From contig JAOVFP010000003.1 of assembly GCA_025738555.1 (NCBI GenBank), positions 3,534,001-3,598,000 on the forward strand: DNA of 64,000 bases. The letters run 5' to 3'. Below, in pieces: positions 10,656 to 35,617 of this stretch. The notes beneath the pieces were generated by a model. That model ran no database searches, had not been told where the DNA came from, and saw nothing but the letters and a program-made list of their open reading frames with translations. Each line of letters starts with the position of its first letter. The first letter of the stretch is position 1. The DNA comes from Cyathus striatus (Eukaryota > Basidiomycota > Agaricomycetes > Agaricales > Nidulariaceae). Made by a program: the position numbers and the translations under genes.

Positions 10656-11025
10656 TCATACTGTAGTATACGTGTACATCTCCTGCTGGACTTTAACTTC
10701 ACTTCCCCGAAAGCTGCCAAGGCCCATACTACCCTCCAAAATCTTCTTTCTCGTCTGCCTGCACTTCTGGTATGTAATCATTGACAGGTAAGCACAACTT
10801 GTGAACAATGGCAATGCATCGATCACTAAGATGTGCCTGCCTACATGCTTCCACAAATTCTCTCAACCCTTGCTTCGTGATTCCTGTTAAAAAAAATTTA
10901 TTACATTTGAGCACTTCGAGTTGTGGACAAACAATCTCTGAATACTCTTTTCCCACAGGCAAGAGACCTGACAATAGCTTGTCATTAATGATACCAAGAT
11001 AATGGGATGGTGACAGTGGTGAGTC

Positions 11026-11368
11026 CAGTGTTGTAAGGTTGCATGGATGTCCACGTGGTATCCACAAAGTCAGATGCTGTGGATACATGCCATAATTCAT
11101 GGCTGTGGATTTGCCATATTTGGTTGAAGCATGAATTGCTTAATCAGCTAGCTGCTGCCATGTCCATCTGTCATAGCTTAGCCTTCTTGCGGCTTCTCGC
11201 CCAATGCCGCGCCCCAGTGGACCAGAAGCCACAACAGACCGCATCAGTATAACCCCGAATATCATCATTCCCACGCCGTATCCATAGATTCATCAGTGGA
11301 CATCCCTGTGGATATCCATGATCCATGTGGCATGGCTGCCACATCCTGCCAGGCCCATTACAACACTG
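11026..11368. mobile_element. 343-bp MITE in F-box-like gene A
   Basis: The 8-mer GGTGAGTC flanks the element on both sides (11018-11025 and 11369-11376). The ends read inward are CAGTGTTGTAAGGTTGC and CAGTGTTGTAATGGGCC. The interior has repeated TGTGGATA/TATCCACA-type words close to both ends (for example around 11045-11110 and 11290-11340) and no coding capacity. Excision restores the F-box gene reading between LDSP and the opposite flank. An 8-bp duplication with a CAGTG start is typical of hAT-like or KDZ/Zisupton-like elements; the superfamily is not settled. Confidence 0.9.
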
Positions 11369-11598
11369 GGTGAGTCCACCCATCTATCATGCTCAAGCTT
11401 CCATTTGGGTGAGGCAATCTTCAAAATTTTTATATATGGTATGTGCTGGAGGATTTGCAGAAGCTCATCAGATGATGATAGCCAACCTGCTGAATATAGT
11501 CCCAATGATACACTGCTTCCACTGCCAGTGGCACACAGTGCTATTGTTAACATATCTTTGGCCATTGAGAAGAACCCACTTCCAAATGCCATGTATCC

Positions 11599-11935
11599 AA
11601 GCACTTTACACTCGCCCCCTGTTACACATGGAATACACGTGTATTCCACCTTTACATGTGCACTCCATGTGCAGTTCATGTGTACTTCACATAGCTTTGG
11701 ATGTATTCAAATTCGAACATTTCCATACAATTTTTGAATTTTTTTACACATGAAGTACATGTGAACTGCACATGAAGTGCATATATATAGGTGGAATGGC
11801 AGAATTCCACATGGAAACATATAGTGGAATTCATGTGCATTTCACATGCAGTGCATATAACTACATTTATTCCACATGTATTACACATTCATAATTGAAT
11901 TATGGTGCTCAGTGTATTGCACATGGAATACTTGC
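11599..11935. repeat. Left subterminal palindrome array of the KDZ element
   Basis: Words such as ACATGGAATACACGTGTATTCC, shortened to cores CACATGGAA and TTCCACATG, occur many times in both orientations. They probably serve as transposase-binding sites (inference). The same vocabulary returns at the right end. Confidence 0.75.
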
Positions 11936-11994
11936 AAGTATTACACTTGTTGCTTACTAAGTATAATAAAAAAGAAATAGAACACGAAAATCTG

Positions 11995-12077
11995 TCCACA
12001 GCAGTAATCAAACCCGAGACCTAGCATATCAGCCATACAAATATTCAACACTGACACAACTAACTGTTCGGCCATAG
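11995..12077 (-). ncRNA. tRNA-Ser/Leu-like relic (SINE-like)
   Basis: On the minus strand the block begins TATGGCCGAACAGTTAG, which resembles the A-box region of serine/leucine tRNAs (TGGCCGAGTGGTTAAGG). About 45 bases later come GGTCTCGGGTTTGATTAC, which resembles their variable loop and B box. The acceptor stem does not pair, and a T-rich tract follows. It is therefore not a working tRNA but a tRNA-derived short element or relic inside the transposon. Confidence 0.4.
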
Positions 12078-12099
12078 TACCCTTTAAATACAAAGGTAA

Positions 12100-13189
12100 G
12101 TCATGCTATGTATACCGCTCGTCCAGCTGTCAGTAACCAGTACATACCTGGGTGACGCGTCACCAGCACTCACCACCAGCGTTCACCACATCAGCCATCA
12201 CCACACCAACGCTCACCACACCACTCTCCAGGCGCTCACTGCTCAGTGCCCGCTCCCTCCCTCCTCCCCTCCGGACCCTCTACACTCGTCCCCTCCCTGC
12301 ATGTAGAAGGCAACAATGCCACTGGCAAGAGCAGGTGTCAATGCCATGTCGCCCAGCCCCTTCCCCTCTGTGTCACAACAACTGCCCACAGCTCCCACCC
12401 GCTCCCACCCTCTCCCATCGCATCAACAATGCTGACACACCATCGGCAATGCCTTGTCACCCACCTCAAGTCACCTCAACGTTTGTGTCCCACACCGCAA
12501 CTCCTGTCCCTCAAGATCTGCAGCGATGTGGCATCAACATCGCTGCTCACTAGGTATGCTGTCTCTCCTTTCTCCTTACTGTCCTGCTGTCTCGTGTTCC
12601 CACAGTGTCGTCTACATTTCATAGATGCCCAACCTCACTCAACAACAACATCATCATGTTGGCGATGGTGCCATGTCATTTGGCCATTTCATGAAGGCAG
12701 CGGGGCCACATCACCTGCCCCTCCTCCTCTCCTTGCTGGCGCATCACCTCAGCGAGTTTGCTATTTCTCGAAGATGGTGGCACCATGTCACCTGCCCCTC
12801 CTCTTCTCGGCGACAGTGCCACATCGTTAGACCACTCCTCCCCTGTTCACGAAGATGGCGACACCACGTCACCTGCCCCCTCTCTTGTCTTCCTCTCCCC
12901 CTGCTTTGTGTCGGCAATAGTACCATCTAGCTGCCCTCCGTTGTTTCATGAAGATGGCGATGCAACACCACCCGCCCACCCTCTCTTCCCCCTATGCGTC
13001 TCCAGCGGCACTGAGGCCATCGCCCTGTCTCCCACAACCACCATACCTCCTTTCTCCCTCTCAACCAAGCGACCACCATCGTTCACACGTCGCCGAGCCC
13101 ATGTCTGCCACCACCACCCCGTCACCACCCCGTCACCACAACCCCATGATCTCAATTCTACCACCTTACCTTCCACCACCACACTTTGA
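12100..13189 (+). repeat. C-rich low-complexity region
   Basis: The plus strand is dominated by CACC, CTCC and CATC words with repeated GGTGGCACCATGTCACCTG-like segments about 60-80 bases apart (12,660-12,960). Long open frames occur on both strands but are Ser/Pro/His-rich products of biased composition. I see no gene here. Confidence 0.6.
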
Positions 13190-14080
13190 GAGGGCAGCAA
13201 GGGGAAGAACAGCGAGGGGTGAGAACAGTGAAGGGGAGAAGAGAGCGAAGGGGGGGAGCAACAAGGGAGGAGAACAGCGAGGGGAGGGGGAGGAAAGTGA
13301 GGAGAGAAGAGAGAGGAGAGCGAGGGGAGGGGGAGGAAAGTGAGAAGAGAAGAGAGAGGAGAGTGAGGAGAGAGGAGAACAAGGAGAGAGGAGAACAAGG
13401 AGAGAGGAGAACAAGGAGAGAGGAGAACAAGGAGAGAGGAGAACAAGGAGAGAGGAGAACAAGGAGAGAGGAGAACAAGGAGAGAGGAGAACAAGGAGAG
13501 AGGAGAACAAGGAGAGAGGAGAATGAGGAGAGAGGAGGGCGAGGAGAGAGGAGGGCGAGGAGAGAGGAGGGCGAGGAGAGAGGAGGGCGAGGAGAGAGGA
13601 GAGCAAGAGGGGAGAAAAGTGACGGGAGGGGAAAGTGAGGGGGAGGAGAGTGAAGGGGGAGTAGAGCGAGAGGGGAGGAAAGTGACAGGAGAGGAAAGCG
13701 AGGGGGAAGAGAGTGTGGGGGAGGAGAGCAGGGAGGAGAGCGTGGGGATGGAGAGCGAAGGGGGAGTAGAGCATGGGGGGAGGAGAGCGAAGGGGGAGTA
13801 GAGCGAAGGGGGAGGAGAGCATGGGGGGAGGAGGGTGGGGCAGAAGGAGAACGAGGCAGAAGGAGAATGAGGTGGAAGGAGAGGAGAGCAAGGGAGGAGG
13901 AGAGCAAGAGAGGAGGAGAGCAAGAGAGGAGGAGAGCAGGGGGGGATGAGGCTGGAGGAAAGTGGGAGAGGAAAGCGAGGCTGGAGAACAGCGAGAGAGG
14001 AAGAGAGCAAGGCGGGATAAAAGTGGGGGGGACAACAGCGAGGGAAGAGGAGAGCGAGGGAGTCCTCTTCCTCTTCCTCC
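13190..14080 (+). repeat. Purine-only tract with a 16-bp minisatellite
   Basis: For about 890 bases the plus strand is almost entirely A and G. The block 13,375-13,520 is a tandem array of a 16-bp unit (AGAACAAGGAGAGAGG), which yields a 16-residue period in each frame. The flanks are diverged GGAGAGCGAGGGGG-type repeats. The long minus-strand frames (410, 289 and 249 codons of Leu/Ser/Pro) are composition artefacts. Such mirror-rich polypurine DNA can form triplexes (established for GA tracts). Confidence 0.9.
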
Positions 14081-14440
14081 TCTTCTACTGCTGCTACTAC
14101 TGCTGTCGTCTTGTTGGGCATTGAGCAGTGGCTATTTTTTAATAGTAGTTTAGTTACACATGTATATTTGTATGCCAATATAACTTTAGTCTTATAACTA
14201 TGATTTGTGAGAACATAAAATGTAGAGACCTTGCTTTATATTGATAAGTGCACTGCATTTGCACTACATCACTGAAGTGATGATGGGCTGCCAATGAGTT
14301 TGAAATGACACGGAGCACTGGTGAACATGGTGCATGTCACTCGCAAATAGCACGCCATATCCGATCGTTGCTCATTGATGATCCCATGGTCTCTACTCTA
14401 ATCGCAACCACCACCTATCCACCTATCTACACCACAACCA

Positions 14441-16766
14441 ATGTCGAGCAACACTGCCAATACTGACAACACTGACAATACTGGCATTCAGGTTTCCCCA
14501 CCTCATTCTCACAGTGGGAAACCTCAAGACCCAGACCTTTTCAACCGTAAATCTTGCAAGTGCACTCAGTCCACTGTTGATACCACACAAGAGCCTGCTA
14601 CCAAGAAGCCAGCAGTAGAAGAAACCAATGATATTGTACAATCTAGTAGAGGTGGAAAAAGTGTGCGGGGTAGGAAACAGAAAGGGAAGCAAGCAGTACA
14701 GGGAAGGTTTGTTGTCTGTTCATGTACTCCCCAGCTCTCACTGTCTCACTGTTTTCAACATTTAGGATAACATCTGCCAACAAAAATGAGATGGATGAAG
14801 CTGCTAAGGCTACAGCTGAGAAACAGATTGCAGGGTGAGTAACACTCTTTATTCTTTGTTATGTGACATCATTGACACCATTACTTACAATTTTACAGTG
14901 CCATGAAGTACTTGAAAGATGCACATGTGTCTGTTGCTCCACCCAAGGCGACAAAGTCTGCAGTTAAACCTAAACCTAAGGCTACTGAGTCCACAGCTAA
15001 GCCAAAAGCTCCCACTCCAGCTGAGAGTCCTACTTTGAGCCAAACACCTTCTGAGATTGATGATAATATCAACACAATCGAAGAAGGAGGTGACAGTAAA
15101 GTGGTAACTGAGGAGGAAGGTCCTGGCACAGAGGATGATAAAGTTGAAGAGGAGGAGAGTGGGAAGAGCAGTGAAGCAGATGAAAGAAGTGGGGAGTATG
15201 TTGATAGTGGTTTGGAGAGTGGAAGAGGAGAGAGTGGAAGAGGAGAGAGTGAGGAAGGTGAGGAAGGTGAGGAAGATGAGGAAGGTGAGGAAGGTGAGGA
15301 AGGTGTAGAACAGGAAGGGGAAGGGGAAATTGAAATAGAGGAAGGGGCAGTCTCTATTAAACAGAAAGGGAAAGGGAAGGGAAGGGAAAATAAAGGGGGT
15401 AACAAGGATGAAAATATGGTTATCAGCAACCCCACCACCCCAACAAAGAAAAGTGGTATGCAATAATTATTTTTAAAAATTAAAGCTTATTCATTGTTTT
15501 CAGACATTGTTATGAGAAGCCCTAGTCCAGTATGGTCTAAAGAAATATTGCAAGGTTCATCTAAAGTTTCAGGTATATTCTAATTATTTTGGTTGAATAA
15601 TTTCTTATAAATTAGTAGGAGGTATACTGCGTGGAAATGCAATTGGAAATGTCAGCAACTGGGCAGATATAGCTGATCCTACTACTCCCTCTCACTCACC
15701 AGTCAGTGGAACTGTACAACTGTACATGACCCAGGATGAGCCAGACTTCAATCCTACTGAGCAATCTGGGATACCTCCAAAAACTATTCCAGTCCCATTT
15801 TCATATGAAATTGGTAATGTTTTGAAGGCAGTGGCAACACCTATGTCACCTGTCAAAAGTGAGTGCTCATAAATTTATTGGTTAAAAATATGTTTATTAA
15901 TGTAAGTTATAGACCAAAACCAACAAATGTACATGTATGATACTGCTAGTAAGGAATGGAATATTTTGGGGCACTATTCAGTAGTCAATAAACAAGGTGA
16001 AGTGCACTGGAGTAGCAGGAATAATAAAAATATAGTTTATTTAGCTGCGGTATTTCTTTTAGTTATTGCATAAAATGTGTACTAACTTTCTTTTAGGCTA
16101 ATCCAGTTTCCTCTTATCAGGGAAATTCTACCAGTGTTCCAAGTGCTCCAGCTACAGAGGTTGATAACAAGAGCTCTTCTGAGGAGTTTAATTACTTCAC
16201 AGAGGACTTCATAACTTTCTGTGAAGTAAACACTGATTTAATTGGTGTTGAAAAATGGGATATTTGTTTTGCTTGGAGGCTCCATAAGGAGATTGAAAGA
16301 GTTCATACTTTCATTCAAAATATGAAAGCTGATGAAAATCCTTGGCCACAAAGTTTGTTATATTTTATTAATGATTTATGATTTACTAATGAAAATAAAA
16401 GGTGTTGGAAAGCCAAATAAGAAGCAAATAGTTTCATTTTTCACAGGTGGAAAGCATGGACACACATCTTACTACAATTGGACATGCATTATGGGGCGTG
16501 TATCTGAGTATCCTGAAATGACTCGGTGGCTTGAAAATCTGGATCTCACTGATGTGGATACAAGAGAGCTTTGGGGACTTCAGAAGACATCTGGTTTTAC
16601 TCGCACAGATTTGGAACAATGGGTTAAGCACCAGTCTGGAGTTCAGAAAAATAAGAAGAGCAGTAGTAGCAGAGGTGGTAGTAGCAAGAGTGGTAACAGT
16701 AAAGGTAGTGGTAGCAGGGGTGGTAGTGGTAAAGGTGGTAGTAACAAGAGCACCACCAATAAGTAA
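14441..16766 (+). CDS. KDZ-element accessory protein, 8 exons, unknown function
   Basis: Eight exons joined by seven GT-AG introns give one uninterrupted frame of 648 residues. The exons are 14441-14706, 14766-14834, 14899-15455, 15504-15572, 15616-15858, 15913-16034, 16097-16352 and 16402-16766, and all phases agree. The N-terminus is polar with a basic stretch (RGRKQKGKQ). The middle is strongly acidic (EEGEEGEEDEEGEEGEEG). Two more structured parts follow: FNYFTEDFITFCEVN...WDICFAWRLHKEIERVHTFI and YYNWTCIMGRVSEYPEMTRWLENL. The tail is Gly/Ser/Lys-rich. I do not recognise a domain, and it is not a TET/JBP dioxygenase, the cargo reported for some KDZ elements. It lies in the same orientation as the transposase and just upstream of it. 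Its stop (TAA 16764-16766) overlaps a consensus donor GTAAGTG, so splicing into the transposase is possible. Confidence 0.7.
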
Positions 16767-16829
16767 GTGATTTAACAATTTTTTTGTTTTTTGACTTTGG
16801 TCTTTCTATAACTGTACTTTTAGTTTCTC

Positions 16830-19247
16830 TTTTTTTTGTCTTCTATGTCTGCTATATGGCCCTCTTCTTCAACAGTCTCTTCTATTTTGGAAAATTCTCT
16901 CTATGATTTCTTTGATTTCTCGATCTTTTATTCAGAAAAATTGTTTAAGTTTGAAAATTCTCTCTATGCTGCTGTGCTTGACACTGGACTACAAATATAT
17001 CTATCTGTGGACTTCACTTTATAAGTCTGGATTCTCCAATCTGAGAGGTGTTGCTATATTATGCCTGCTATCTTTTCTACCTATGGCAGCTGCAAGTCCA
17101 AATGAACAGTTTTTTCCTAAAATCCATTTCAAAACCTTTTCCAACTTTATAGAATGCAACTTTGGCCCAAATATATCACTTTCAACTGTTCTTATGCTGT
17201 TATTCACAATGACAAGCAATACAGAGTTACTGAATTTACACCAAAGACAACAGCATCCTGAAAATGAATTTGAAAGAAAAAGTTTAATCTCAGCTTGGAT
17301 ACGATCTTTAAGCTATGCAGTTATACATGAGCTTGGTGACAAATCAAAGCATCTTTTCAAAGAGAGTGAAATAACACCTGGTTTCTGGAATGTTAATAAT
17401 AAAAATGCAGTTGCTTTGAACCTTGGAAAGAAGCTAAACAAATTTAGTAAAATTCTGAAACTAACATCATATGATGATCATGGAAGACTTGTTAAATATC
17501 TTAAACCTGTTTCTCTCAATAAAATACAGCCTATAAAAATGATATGTCTAGCTTCTGTCAGTTGTGCTGGAAGTAAATGCAATAACAAAAATATTAAACT
17601 TTCATCAAAATATGAAGATATACCATGTGTAACATTGATTAGTAGGACTGAGATTAATAGTCATGCCTATATACTTTCTGGAATCTGCTCAAACTGTAAA
17701 ACAATATATTATGCTGATCATGAGAGACACAAAATATCTTCAAATCCTGCTCAGAAGGCCTATCTTAATAATGCAAAGTACATAAAAATTGGTAAAACTC
17801 TATGGGTTGATCGCATATTCTCAAGATCTGTATTAAATGCAATCTATAGCTTTCATGCTTCTACATCTGCATTTGCTGAGTTTTGGAGTAATTCTTATGG
17901 AGATACAAAAGAAGTTAGTCGCAGACAAATTTAGTGTACATTTATAGAGGAGTCTTTGAGAACAGTAGCTGAATCCTCAAAATCAAATTTTGTTATTGAT
18001 GATGGCCTTGCAGTTAAAGACATTACAAGGAGTGCATATGATAAGCTTGGGTCCAATGGTAATATATATCCTGCTACTGAGCATAGTTGCTCAGAATGTA
18101 CCCACAAATATAAAACAACTGCAGATGTAATTCCTTCTGGAATTCATTCAGATCCAGCTTCCACTACTCCTGAGCAGTCTTTAGATACAAATGAAGAAAA
18201 TTTTTCTCCAGTGAAAATGGTTGTTATTGATGGAGTCATAATGGGAACAACAGTGTGTTAATTTCTTTAATTTATATATTTACACTAACATGCATCTGTA
18301 GCATTGTGCTTGGGAAGGCTGTATTGCTGAGCTACAAAATCATCGAGGTGGAGTATTTTGTGGACTTCATACTATTATGTATGGTGCAAAATGCTGTGTC
18401 AAAGGGTGCATATCCCAAAAAATTAAAGGTACACAGGCCTGTGAAACACATCAAAATTTATGGAACAAGCATAAGTCAAACTCAAGTTCTTCAGGATTGG
18501 CAGGTCTCCAAAGAGCTTTACAAACAAGAGATAGACAGCCATGGCAGCCAAGTACTACAAATAATGTATCTGCCCATGATGAACCTCATGAAGAGCCAAC
18601 AGAAAGACATAAGACATACTTTAAACCTTCAAAATCCTACTGTGTTGAAACTCTCTGTGCACCATGTGGAGTAGTAATTGCTTGGTCCAAATTCATGAAA
18701 TCTGAGTCTCCTACAGAGATTTTGGGGTTTATAAATAATGTTTATTCAACACCAGAGTCTCACCCAGCATATTTTTGTATTGATAAAGCTTGTGTTGTAT
18801 TGCGCACTGTGGCAAATCAAGAAGAATATCGTGAATTACTAGAAACTAGTTGATTTGTTGTTGATAGCTATCATTATAATAACCATAAAGCCTCTGATAG
18901 GTTGTGTCAAGAATACTGTAACCCAGCACCACATGATGGATCAGCACCAAACTTGGTTGTTATTGACTATGATAATGATGGTACACCATATTACAAACAT
19001 GCTTTTAATACACAGGCAAGTAACTTATTTTTTTGCATAACAATCAATATTTAATTAATTTATATAGGCATGTGAGCAGTTAAATGCATGGCTTGCTGGA
19101 TTTGAGTCTATTCTAAGGAGAATGACTCCATCAAACTTCAACTGGTTTTTACATACAGTACTTTTTTATCATACTCAATGTGTTCTTCAGAAGCATAGCA
19201 AAAAGTGGGTAAAGATTAGTGATGACATTGTAGAAGATGATGAGTAA
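16830..19247 (+). pseudogene. KDZ-type transposase with CxC5/CxC6-like clusters, two in-frame stops
   Basis: From 16903 a frame reads through a first cysteine cluster (SCAGSKCNN ... CSNCKTIYYADHER), then TAG at 17932-17934, then CSECTHKYKTTADVIPSG and VKMVVIDGVIMG. Intron 18253-18301 follows. The next exon has a second cluster (HCAWEGC...GVFCGLH...CCVKGC...ACETH) and the catalytic-region motifs CIDKAC, then TGA at 18851-18853, then VVDSYHYNNHKASD. A GC-AG intron (19016-19067) precedes ACEQLNAWL. The frame ends with TAA at 19245-19247. The stops fit TGG to TAG and CGA to TGA changes. Family membership (KDZ transposases of mushrooms, RNase H fold) is from memory of these motifs. The start codon is uncertain. 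The product would cut and paste the element in the nucleus but is inactive as it stands. Confidence 0.8.
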
Positions 19248-19499
19248 ATACTAAATGCCTTTTGTATGCAACCCACTTTCCAAACCAGTCTCTTAATAGC
19301 TTCATTTCTACTTGCATGTAAAGTCATTATAAAGCTGTAATTGATGTATATACTCCAGTCTCAAAACTAGTCAAGACTTCTTTCAGATAAATTTAGCTAT
19401 ATAACATGTATATAGTATGTGATTCAGTCTATAAATAAGATTGTATTGGTGTATTTAGTTTAGTTTTTAAACCAATCTGTTCATGAATTAATGTTTATA

Positions 19500-19988
19500 T
19501 ATTTTTCAGGGTTAATTTCATATGTAATACATCAGAACTTCATGTGAACTTAACCTTGAAGTTATGTGGCAAAATGTATCTAAATACATGTGGAATCCAT
19601 GTGGATTTCACATGTAATACACCTGAACTTCATGTGAACTTAACCTTGAAGATATGTGGCACAACATATTTAAATGCATGTGGAATTCATGTGGATTCCA
19701 TGTGGATTCCACATGAATCATTACAGATTTTAAGGATTCCATGTGTAGTCCACATGGAATTCACATGGAAAAGTACACATGAAGTACACCTTAAGTACAC
19801 CTTTCAACTGTCATTTTCATCAAGTTATAAGAAAGGTGGAATCCATGTGTACTCCACATGGTTCCATGTGAATTACACATGGAAAATGTGTACTTTTTTC
19901 CAGATATGTGGATTCCATGTGGACTTCACATGGAAATGTGTACTACATGTGGAGTACACATGTATAGGTGGGTGTGCGGAAAGTACTG
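19500..19988. repeat. Right subterminal palindrome array of the KDZ element
   Basis: Repeated TTCATGTGAACTTAACCTTGAAG-like segments, shortened to TTCATGTGAACTTAACCTTG, occur twice about 90 bases apart (19,540 and 19,630). Many CATGTGGAATCCATGTGGA-type words follow up to the terminal repeat. Confidence 0.75.
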
Positions 19989-21180
19989 ATGTATCCTGCA
20001 AAATCGAAATCAAGCTGCTCAATAGAAGGGAGATACAGGTGTTTCACAAATTCCACAACATCAGTTGTTGGTGGCAGGCACAGGCTTAGCACAGTCAAAT
20101 GATGAAGTGCAACATTCCCCATGGTTTGTGGCCATGCATTGCTGCAAGTGTCATCTGGCTCGATTGTGTCATGAGTTATGATTCTCAACTTTAATATCTT
20201 CAAAGCCATGCAGTGACAAATAACTGTGGATGAAACATCAACCAAGCTCACTTCCTTAACAAGGATCTTGAGCAGATGCAGCACCAAATTCAATTCTGTA
20301 AGCTGTCCCCAGACATGTTTTGGAGTTGAAGAAAATTCTGCAGTACTAGTGCCAACTCCGTAACCGAGGTCGATCATAGCAGTGGTAACCTGCAAAGAAA
20401 GAAGGCTAGTGATATCTGTCCATTTTACCAATGGTGTACTTGTGTGAGGTGTCTGAATAATGTTAATATGAAGGTGTTTTAGCATTTTCAGGCTTTCACC
20501 CTTCAGACCAGGGCCACTCTTGAGAATATCATCTAAAATATTTGCAGTGACATGTATGTCAATATCATACCAACACTGGTGGTATGACAGGATATTATGC
20601 AGCATATCAGTGTACTCATTATGGAAAGGATTGTCAATGTAAGACCAGTGAGTACTTTGATACATCGATATAGATAATGGACATGCACCAGATTGCTCTA
20701 GCCACTGCTTTATACCAGCTTTGTGCTGATTGATTTTGAGTCGCACTAGCACTTTAATGTCCAAAATAAAGCTGTCTGATTGATTTCCTTCTATATGGAA
20801 ACTGGGAAGAATGATATGAATGGCTGCCCATAATCGCAGTGTCAAGTGAGCAATCATCCTCCAAGAGCTGCAAATTTGTGTCAACACCATAGGTGCTTCT
20901 GATACACACATGTAGGGATTACGATCCATTGGAAGACAAGCCATAAAGATCCCCTGAAGGATATCATGATCGAGCCTCCATGTGGGTGATATCAAGGTGT
21001 GGTACTGTTCAGCAATGTCAAGCATTTTCTGTCATTGAAGCTGGCTGATTTCTATATCAATATCATGAACCTCTTTAGACAAGATGGAGTCAAGGCGGTC
21101 CTTGATTTGCCTTGCCTCCTCAAATGATGGAACATAGTTGGTACCAAAATGTTGTTCGAATAATGAATCCATGCCTGAGA

Positions 21181-23019
21181 TCTGAAAGATGTGAGTTGGA
21201 AGGATGTAAGGAAGGTGATTTACTAGTAAGTCAACTCACTTGGGGTTGACCATCAATAGGCAGTTGCTGTACAGTGAGGTTGCAGCGAGGTTGCAGTGAG
21301 GTCAAGCTTAAGAATGATGTTGGCCCATTGTTTCAAACATTGTTTGCCATTGATTGTAATCGCGGTCACATGTCCATTGTCGACTATTTTTACTGACAAT
21401 GAGTGTCTTGTGAGTGTCACAACTGTAACTCAATTTACAACTCCCCCACTGTTGATTATCGCAAGAACTGAAATGTGTGTATCTACACTGCTCGCCCTGT
21501 AGGTCCAAGGATTACTTATGTAATAGGGTAAAATCACTGTCAATGCTAGGTGCTTCAGTACTTACATAATATATCTGGCATGTACGGTGTTCCTAAACCG
21601 TATGCCTCCCTCAAGTCTTTCGGCTTAGCAGTGTCTCGGTCCGACTCTCGCTCTCACCACGTGATGGGTCCATTGTCTCGTCAATCTTAACTTTTAAGTT
21701 ATCAGCCGAAGTACATATCTTAGAAGGTGGGATTAATTGTAGATTTTCGAGACACTTCTTTCTACTTGCTTTCTTCAAGGAGGTGGATATATGTGCATAA
21801 TATATATAGATACTATTAAATGTACAAGTATATGTAAATACATACTACTATAATTATGGGCTACTGACAATACATCCTACCTATATACCCACCCATAATA
21901 TCCCACAACTCCCATTCGTCTCTTATTTCCTTCCATTTACGACCCTCCCCCACCGTCCAGCTCATATGGGGTGTACCACAGCGTCTCACCTCAACCTACC
22001 ATACCCACCCGCACGTCGATCCTGCTACAATTCCAGCATCCCCACTGCCAACCAATCAAGACCCCTACAGCCGCAAGCACCCCAAGCAACCCTGTACCAA
22101 CTACCACCCTCCCAACGCCACTACTGCTACTTCAACACTCTGATTGTGGACACTCACACCTGTGTTCATCAAAACCACCGTCTTCCGCCAGCTTGTGGGT
22201 TGTACAATGATAAAGTGAAGAGGAGGGACTGGAGGAAACAAGAGAAGACAGCGGAGGGCCACTTAGTGTTGATGTGGATAAGGGAGCTGAGATGAGACTC
22301 GAGAGCGCGGTTCCATTTAGTGTTGTATCTGCGCGCACGGTAGGCTTTCATTCCCTGTATGTCATTGAATGAGAGGAAGGTGAAGATGCGAGTATGAACA
22401 CTTAGCTTAAAAGAGTCGTCGGGATGGAGTGTTAGAGAGCGGCGCGCCGACGATGCAAGGTGGTGGAGGAAGAGAAAGAGCACAATGCGATCCTGGGAAA
22501 CTGGGGTTTGTTGATTGGTCTCAAGTATCACATGATATTATTTGTTATTGCTAGATTGGTTCATGGGGTACGGCGCAATGGGAGTCTGGAGGGGACTGAA
22601 GAAAGGAGAAACAAGATGTTCAGCTTGTATTTAGCGTATAATACATGTATCTATAAGAATAGTAAATTTTAGATATGTGCTCGCACGATTTGCTACCGGA
22701 AATTGGAATTTGGAGGGATTTCAGTCCCAGCACTACTCTTAATAAGCCTTGTTTAAGCATCGATATCACTGCTATGCTGTTGTACCCGTGTTCTCTATAA
22801 TTTTTGGTTTGTACTGGATAGTATAACATTTTATTTCTGCCTTTTTGACTTTTACAGCAGATATATTTCACGATTTCCTAGTCGCTGTTCTCGCATTCCC
22901 ACTTCACCCGCAATTTAATTGCTTACGTAAGCTAATGTGAAGGGGGTGGCGGTCCACTTAGCAAGTATTCAATTTACATTCAATACTAGTTGTTTTTTGC
23001 TTCGATTTGCATAAATACA
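21181..23019. other. Region without a supported gene
   Basis: 21,180-21,300 resembles the upstream region of F-box-like gene C (a shared AGTTGCTGTACAG-type segment) and is probably the promoter of gene A. Around 21,960-22,160 the plus strand is CA-rich. A 120-codon minus-strand frame (22531-22169) exists but resembles nothing I know. The rest is AT-rich. Confidence 0.4.
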
Positions 23020-33781: not shown

Positions 33782-35617
33782 ATGGATTCACCATTCCAAC
33801 AACATCTCGGTACCAACTACATTCCCTCAGTCAATGAGGCAAGGCAAATCCAGAACCTCCTAGAGATCTCATCTAAAGAGGTTCACGATATTGATATGGA
33901 AATCAGCCAGCTTCAAAAACGGTTGGATCTTCTGCAGATCAAACGACTGAAAATATTCGATCTTGCTGAACAGTACCACGCTTTGTTATCACCCGCTCGG
34001 AGGCTCAGTCGGGATATCCTGGCGGAAATATTTCTAGCATGCCTTCCAACAGATCGTAATCCCTGCATGAGTGCGACAGAAGCACCTATGTTGTTGACAC
34101 AAGTCTGTAGCTTTTGGAGGAGTATTGCCCACTCTACACCGCGGTTGTGGGCAGCTATTCATATCGTTCTTCCTAGTATCTATAAAAATATTCCACCTGA
34201 CAGCTATCTTCCAGAGCGCAAATCTATAGTGCGACGCAAACTCGATCAGCGCGAAGCTGGTACAAAAGAGTGGCTAGACCGGTCTGGTGCATGTCCGTTA
34301 TTCATTTCCATTTATCAAGGCCGACAAACCCTTGTTGTGCGCAACACCCGGGAATGGTACTCATCCTTTATAATCAACACCATAGTACCACACCACAAGC
34401 GTTGGTATGATATTGATATGTATATCACCGCGGACGCTTTAATCCATTCTGTACTCAAGGGTGGCCCTGGTCTGACAGGAAAACACCTCAAAATGCTAAA
34501 ACATCTTCACATTACTATTAATCAGACTTTTCCCCAGGAAACGCCAGTGCGTTTTGCACAATTGTACGACATTGCTGGTCTTTTTTCTTCGCAGGTCACT
34601 GCTGCTACGATTAACATCGGTCTCAACATCCATCCTGTAGACTTTTCTTCAACTCCAAAAAATGTCTGGGGACTACTTACCGAATTAAATTTGGAGCTAT
34701 ATTCGCAACAGGGTTTTGAAGTAAACTTGGTCGATATTTCATCCGCAGTTATTTGTCACTGTCTAGCTTTAGAGATATTGAAGTTCAAAGTGGTGTCCTC
34801 GAATGACGATTCCTTTGATGATGAAACCGTCGGTAATCGATGGCCACAAACCATGGGGGATATCCAACTTCAGCATTTGACGATACTAAGCCTGTCACTA
34901 CCGCCAACAACTGATGCTGTGGAATTCGTGGGACATCTGTATCTCCCTTCCATTAAGCAGCTTGATTTCGATTTTGCAGGACATCGTGGACATGGGTTTT
35001 TCACACGGGCTGAAGAGATATTAAAGTTGGCTCTGCGTGCCGGTGCTACTGCAGGTGGCGTCTCATTGGGATTATATATGCCAGTTTGGATAAGAACGTA
35101 CGCTGAAATGCTGCAACTTCTCCAGCATATACCATATATAAAATCTCTGAAGATTTCTTCGGCTAGAATCAATCACAACAGATGGTCGATGCCGTTGTCC
35201 GAAATTTTTCACTTTCACCACATCTTTAATGATAATATATTATCTGCTCTATCGCCTGGAGGAAAAGAATATTCTCAGATTCTTTGTCCGCAGCTAGAGG
35301 TACTCGAATACGACAACAATGTTCTGACATCAATCACAGAGCAGGGATTCAGAAACTTCGTGGAAGTGCGTAGAGAGGCACATATTAGCGATGGACGCAT
35401 CGCTGCTATTCGAAAGTTATGCATATTCATCAACGATTGTAAACAGGAGATGCAGGTGGATGAGAAGTTGTCGCTAGAAAATGATTCTGCCATTTACTTC
35501 AGGAAGGTTAAGAATGACCTATTTTCTCCTTGGGAGGGTTTGGAAGCTAGGACGAAGGATGGGATGAAACCCAAAGATTATGGTCCTGTTGAACGGGTGA
35601 TATACACGGAAATTTAA
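33782..35617 (+). CDS. F-box-like protein, intact copy (gene B)
   Basis: This 611-residue intronless gene starts MDSPFQQHLGTNYIPSVNE. A coiled-coil segment (about 30-60, EVHDIDMEISQLQKRLDLLQ) precedes an F-box-like region (about 61-125) with LSPARRLSRDILAEIFLACLP and VCSFWRSIAHSTPRLWAAIHI. The C-terminal 450 residues have irregular leucine-rich repeats (HLTILSLSLPPTTDAVEFV, LLQHIPYIKSLKIS). This is the common F-box-like architecture of mushroom genomes, presumed to bind Skp1 and present substrates to an SCF ubiquitin ligase; substrates are unknown. It is the only undamaged one of three copies here. The others are at 10,656-21,172 and 41,426-43,270, with a remnant at 39,690. Confidence 0.85.
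   Translation: MDSPFQQHLGTNYIPSVNEARQIQNLLEISSKEVHDIDMEISQLQKRLDLLQIKRLKIFDLAEQYHALLSPARRLSRDILAEIFLACLPTDRNPCMSATEAPMLLTQVCSFWRSIAHSTPRLWAAIHIVLPSIYKNIPPDSYLPERKSIVRRKLDQREAGTKEWLDRSGACPLFISIYQGRQTLVVRNTREWYSSFIINTIVPHHKRWYDIDMYITADALIHSVLKGGPGLTGKHLKMLKHLHITINQTFPQETPVRFAQLYDIAGLFSSQVTAATINIGLNIHPVDFSSTPKNVWGLLTELNLELYSQQGFEVNLVDISSAVICHCLALEILKFKVVSSNDDSFDDETVGNRWPQTMGDIQLQHLTILSLSLPPTTDAVEFVGHLYLPSIKQLDFDFAGHRGHGFFTRAEEILKLALRAGATAGGVSLGLYMPVWIRTYAEMLQLLQHIPYIKSLKISSARINHNRWSMPLSEIFHFHHIFNDNILSALSPGGKEYSQILCPQLEVLEYDNNVLTSITEQGFRNFVEVRREAHISDGRIAAIRKLCIFINDCKQEMQVDEKLSLENDSAIYFRKVKNDLFSPWEGLEARTKDGMKPKDYGPVERVIYTEI

Follow-up and report, generated by a model that had tools for sequence, protein, structure and literature searches.

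The question raised by this locus is which protein moves a large insert that breaks a gene in the agaricomycete Cyathus striatus. The stretch of DNA analysed here, referred to as the window, comprises 64,000 nucleotides (assembly GCA_025738555.1, contig JAOVFP010000003.1, positions 3,534,001 to 3,598,000), and an element of 8,390 bp on its + strand (11599..19988) interrupts a member of an F-box-like gene family. The second of the two genes of the element encodes a protein with the cysteine clusters CxC5 and CxC6. Mushroom genomes contain many CxC5/CxC6 proteins, which were named after KDZ elements. We consider it probable that the element moves by cut and paste as a DNA transposon and belongs to a KDZ-associated CxC5/CxC6 lineage, gene 2 being the most likely source of its DDE transposase.

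Results

The ends of the element were read directly. The octamer ATGTATCC stands on both sides of it (11591..11598 and 19989..19996) as an exact target-site duplication, and the boundaries and the duplication were as the first-pass annotation had placed them. That annotation had looked to other genomic copies for support, and these were found when the genome (107,453,461 bases, 24 contigs) was searched for the element ends. Because 40 of 110 left-end candidates and 40 of 109 right-end candidates were scored, the copy numbers given here are lower bounds. Seventeen copies had both ends, namely the window copy, 15 retrieved copies (L039, L040+L041 and L042-L054) and L017, which was found whole within a right-end locus. 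An exact 8/8 duplication flanks 14 of the 17, the others matching at 6/8 (L053), 3/8 (L045) and 0/8 (L039) positions. The right terminus AAAGTACTG is common to all 17 and the left terminus GAGCACTTTA to 15, the exceptions being the window copy (AAGCACTTTA) and L046 (GAGGACTTTA). Sixteen copies begin with G, whereas the window copy begins with A; since a C precedes it in the window, this A represents a CpG-type change, a type common in that copy. On the other strand the right end reads CAGTACTTT, and the terminal repeat is short and imperfect. Thus independent copies share the same definite termini and make duplications of one length, as expected of a DNA transposon. The 14 exact duplications show no strict consensus, and A/T is favoured at their positions 2-6. 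Copies L042 (8,574 bp) and L043 (8,472 bp) have their parts in the same order as the window copy and perfect duplications of their own, and some copies contain additional DNA (L040+L041 measures 11,540 bp).

Nine short copies (L046-L054, 1.29-2.0 kb) contain neither gene. In the segments shown, they match the window copy at the ends only, over about 217 bp on the left at 76-78% identity and over 220-257 bp on the right at 94.6-98.2% identity, which indicates that their left end is of a different kind. Their interior is repetitive and aligns among the nine in several registers. From these alignments they look like a non-autonomous subfamily, and perhaps they are chimeric non-autonomous elements. 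Two further observations concern the flanks. Copies L039 and L045 have the correct termini between unmatched flanks (0/8 and 3/8), a pattern expected from recombination between copies. Copies L057 (contig C10) and L043 (contig C3) share an identical left flank, GTTGTATTTCCT, ahead of the same left end; the region may have been duplicated, or the target may have been a repeat.

Gene 2 (16795..19247, + strand) has at least three exons (about 16795-18258, 18302-19018 and 19069-19247), with predicted start and splice sites. Both cysteine clusters named in the first-pass annotation scored over the Pfam cut-offs: CxC5 at 17530..17898 (+ strand; residues 246-368 of the exon starting at 16795; PF18718, 77.7 bits, cut-off 26.9) and CxC6 at 18302..18472 (+ strand; PF18721, 39 bits, cut-off 27.5). 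RNase H-like motifs were seen beside them, as that annotation had reported, and are predicted to belong to a DDE catalytic core. The first predicted catalytic Asp (VVIDG, 18229..18231, + strand) and the second (CIDKAC, 18782..18784, + strand) occupy columns that are invariant in 58 of 58 relatives, and the fold suggests their catalytic role. The predicted catalytic Glu (ACEQLN, 19074..19076, + strand) lies in an ACEQ motif shared by 37 of the 58; the remaining 21 all read AFNTQV at this position, as expected of an unspliced intron donor. In the predicted structure of a relative, the C-terminal half falls on the retroviral-integrase fold. A second model, that of P0014, had low confidence and yielded no match to an integrase. 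No NCBIfam family came near its cut-off for the four proteins searched. A PDB sequence search with the protein family returned only the TRPM2 channel at E 0.024, which was taken as chance.

The first-pass annotation had described a complete transposon. This holds for its structure, as the copy runs from end to end, but gene 2 of the window copy is broken by two premature stops, an in-frame TAG (17932..17934, + strand) and an in-frame TGA (18851..18853, + strand), neither of which is present in L042, L043, L039 or the C7 copy L060. Judged from this reading frame, the window copy is dead and cannot make the full enzyme any more, although enzyme from another copy might still act on its ends. Among the columns counted, 43 changes are private to the window copy; those of the C-to-T type number 15 at 54 CpG positions, compared with 7 at 687 CpA/TpG positions and 6 at 814 other C/G positions. 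The observed/expected ratio of CpG was 0.27 for the element, against 0.69 for the remainder of the window. The CpG depletion and the C-to-T excess point to methylation-linked decay.

Gene 1 (14441..16766, + strand) is a spliced, low-complexity gene whose start and splice sites were assigned by eye. A conserved exon (16404-16640, + strand) is found at other genomic sites as well, immediately in front of CxC5 genes. When 150 of 262 candidate matches to this exon were scored, 89 had a listed CxC5 match within 3 kb. All 89 pairs have both members on one strand, with the exon upstream of CxC5 at a median distance of 283 bp; the other 61 are without a CxC5 partner among the matches listed. The pairs occur even in families whose CxC5 is only about 43-51% identical to that of the window. 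A Pfam scan of three pieces of gene 1 gave no meaningful match, and its conserved part matched a single public protein, an unnamed one of C. striatus (77% over 60% of the query). For another protein searched, the nearest named match likewise came from C. striatus (75% over 35%). The pairing suggests that gene 1 encodes an accessory protein of the element.

Along the element, a left subterminal array is followed by a low-complexity block, gene 1, gene 2 and a right subterminal array. The palindromic arrays noticed in the first pass contain CACATG/CATGTG, with 33 motifs in the outer 850 bp (left 360 and right 490) versus 7 in the 7,540 bp between. The left end (11599..11958), with the short imperfect terminal repeat, has 12 motifs, 5 of their 11 spacings being exactly 11 bp; the right end (19499..19988), which closes with AAAGTACTG, has 21, with 11 of 20 spacings exactly 11 bp. 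Under random placement, the mean number of such neighbour spacings would be about 0.27 on the left and 0.57 on the right, and the observed counts were reached in none of 20,000 placements. Since each motif is placed independently in this control, while real arrays expand through duplication, the result demonstrates that the spacing is regular but does not alone establish a function. In the 15 other copies tabulated, there are 7-12 motifs in the left 360 bp and 9-21 in the right 490 bp, and in the short copies (L046-L054) the motifs are frequent in the middle too. The low-complexity block, also real, extends from about 12181 to 14060 and consists of a C-rich portion followed by a portion of 91% purine, with a 16-bp GA-rich tandem array at 13309-13936. 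It is present at the same place and in variable length in four other copies: the anchors flanking it are 2.05 kb apart in the window, about 2.22 kb in L042, 1.55 kb in L043, 2.04 kb in L039 and 2.36 kb in L040+L041.

The first-pass designation of the element as KDZ-type was supported in part. Two features associated with KDZ are present, the CxC5 and CxC6 clusters and the 8-bp duplication of the 14 copies. On the other hand, the profile of the KDZ catalytic domain (PF18758) had no match in the eight window pieces searched, those of gene 2 included (E up to 1), nor in any of the 58 relatives (E up to 0.01). The genome has 159 PF18758 matches, and none of those listed lies inside the transposon. 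A listed PF18758 locus was found within 10 kb of 5 of the 138 listed CxC5 loci, against 2.4 pairs expected at random, and within 2 kb of two. As a rule, therefore, the cysteine clusters of this genome are not accompanied by a KDZ gene of its own standing nearby. At the two closest loci (C3:6477839-6480882 and C10:3691750-3694583) PF18758 lies 1.6-1.8 kb off on the opposite strand, which may be either a nested insertion or an element with both.

The host gene lies on the - strand, its first part at 19997..21190 and its remainder, left of the transposon, at 10737..11590, where the left limit is the start of the alignment with the paralog L068. The flanks were joined by removing one duplication and omitting a 343-bp insertion with one copy of its duplication. 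The joined flanks aligned with L068 at 82% over 1,135 columns and with ten further paralogs at about 68-70%, and the transposon is absent from all of these alignments, which compare paralogs, not alleles. Since L068 has a 6-base gap and mismatches at the junction, it does not reveal the 8 bp originally present. The claim of a broken host gene thus stood, this being a member of a paralog family, but its assignment as an F-box gene did so only weakly: the profile PF12937 scored 14.5 bits (cut-off 24.3) in paralog L070, which has an open frame of 651 codons, and had no match in the window half of the host gene. F-box-like is accordingly the safe name. The one PDB sequence match of a host paralog, a sulfotransferase at E 0.54, was taken as chance. 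The relatives (L068-L078) are on contigs C3 and C5, and one lies within the window (34635-34981, - strand, 77% identity over 350 bp). Because the host gene has an in-frame TGA of its own near its start (21029-21031, - strand), it may have been a pseudogene before the transposon inserted. The 343-bp insertion (11026-11368), which interrupts the remainder of the host gene, has the ends CAGTGTTGTAA...TTACAACACTG and the 8-bp duplication GGTGAGTC. At two other sites, C1:8408670-8412451 and C2:6298619-6302403, its two halves are separated by about 3.8 kb; the insertion may therefore derive by internal deletion from a longer element, possibly a hAT-like one. Scans of the window with Rfam (gathering score) and for tRNA gave no matches. 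A search for a TET/JBP gene (PF12851) had no match, but neither did its control.

Discussion

The exact ends, the 8-bp duplications and the integrase-like fold suggest that CxC5/CxC6 proteins are transposases themselves. The gene 2 protein would have one zinc cluster ahead of an integrase-like RNase H core and the other inserted in the core. Once bound to the CACATG/CATGTG arrays at either end, such a protein could bring the two ends together, excise the element and join it to the target across an 8-bp stagger, which would give the 8-bp duplication; gene 1 would assist. The arrays are perhaps the transposase binding sites, and their spacing of one motif for each turn of the helix offers a specific idea on end recognition that can be tested. 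The defined ends and the short derivatives open the way to a direct transposition test.

The strongest alternative, which we regard as unlikely, makes the CxC5/CxC6 protein no more than an accessory or passenger; the element would then be moved by a KDZ transposase supplied in trans or by Copia elements, as proposed for Pleurotus (PMC7641404). The 2020 Pleurotus study reported no KDZ gene within the expected distance of CxC5/CxC6 and a frequent association with Copia (PMC7641404). The failure of PF18758 to match the CxC5/CxC6 protein and the many PF18758 loci in the same genome also agree with this explanation. However, the termini and the 8-bp duplications are of the DNA-transposon type, PF18758 loci are near few of the CxC5 loci, and the integrase-like fold and the conserved acidic residues reside in the CxC5/CxC6 protein itself. 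Because PF18758 is unmatched and rarely nearby, and in view of the fold and the invariant aspartates, the DDE transposase is probably the gene 2 protein itself, which speaks against the Copia link (PMC7641404).

It is far less plausible that the element belongs to the hAT superfamily and happens to carry cysteine clusters. Elements of the hAT superfamily have 8-bp duplications and a CAG-like terminus; the 8-bp duplication and the right end, CAGTACTTT on the other strand, are compatible with such an origin. However, no hAT domain was detected in eight window pieces and three pieces of the C7 copy (E 1) or in the 58 relatives (E 0.01). A composite of nested repeats between 8-mers that are alike by chance has next to no probability, for although low-complexity and tandem arrays occupy much of the left part and some copies (e.g. 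L040+L041) have extra DNA, the independent copies, with L042 and L043 similar in length and order and each in its own perfect duplication, rule it out.

We therefore return to a DNA transposon that encodes its own CxC5/CxC6 transposase, and to its relation to KDZ elements. Kyakuja proteins have an order of motifs comparable to that of the CxC5/CxC6 protein. By this analogy, the latter is likely to be distantly akin to KDZ. The literature already contains KDZ elements with 8-bp duplications, so the element is a variant, not a new class. Tentatively, and with somewhat less than even confidence, we suggest that CxC5/CxC6 proteins form a separate transposase lineage beside the PF18758 KDZ proteins, whose integrase-like core is split by a zinc cluster immediately behind the first catalytic strand. 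The lineage would be further marked by a two-gene cassette that is conserved, by ends with binding sites once per helical turn, and by a wide distribution in mushrooms (138 CxC5 loci listed here).

The first-pass annotation considered precise ends of such mushroom elements to be seldom described. They are no longer so rare, and exact ends alone are not new: for fungal KDZ elements, ends or duplications are given in three papers (PMC12810828, PMC12730594 and PMC8290104). KDZ1, KDZ2 and KDZ3 of Cryptococcus neoformans are likewise large DNA transposons (about 9-11 kb) whose transposase has a cysteine cluster, and their duplications (8 bp in KDZ1, 4-8 bp in KDZ2 and KDZ3) resemble those found here (PMC12810828). 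They differ in having CxC1 with a KDZ domain and terminal inverted repeats (TIRs) of 139-241 bp (PMC12810828), whereas the window element has CxC5/CxC6, no match to PF18758 and only a short, imperfect terminal repeat. Kojima (2025) gave the duplications and termini of fungal KDZ families; those of fungal Zisupton and one Dileera family are 8 bp, as here, while Kyakuja has 7-bp duplications and CA..TG ends without inverted repeats (PMC12730594). CxC clusters receive no mention in the main text of that paper. TIR motifs were reported for Marasmius (PMC8290104). The open-access papers searched yielded neither CxC5/CxC6 proteins named as the transposase of defined elements nor self-contained CxC5/CxC6 elements, the two-gene cassette or helically spaced arrays; the last three may be new.

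The closest published counterpart is the insert in msh4 of Pleurotus ostreatus, which is 6,792 bp long, breaks a gene and contains a 739-aa CxC5/CxC6 open reading frame and a repeat cluster (PMC7641404). The difference lies in its interpretation, as the authors linked it to Copia-type retrotransposons; the terms "target site" and "inverted repeat" are absent from the main text (PMC7641404). A P. ostreatus CxC5/CxC6 protein (P0114, 740 aa), which we do not assume to be identical with the msh4 reading frame, has the Asp and Glu motifs. If CxC5/CxC6 proteins are transposases, the sporeless oyster mushroom would owe its phenotype to the ordinary insertion of a DNA transposon.

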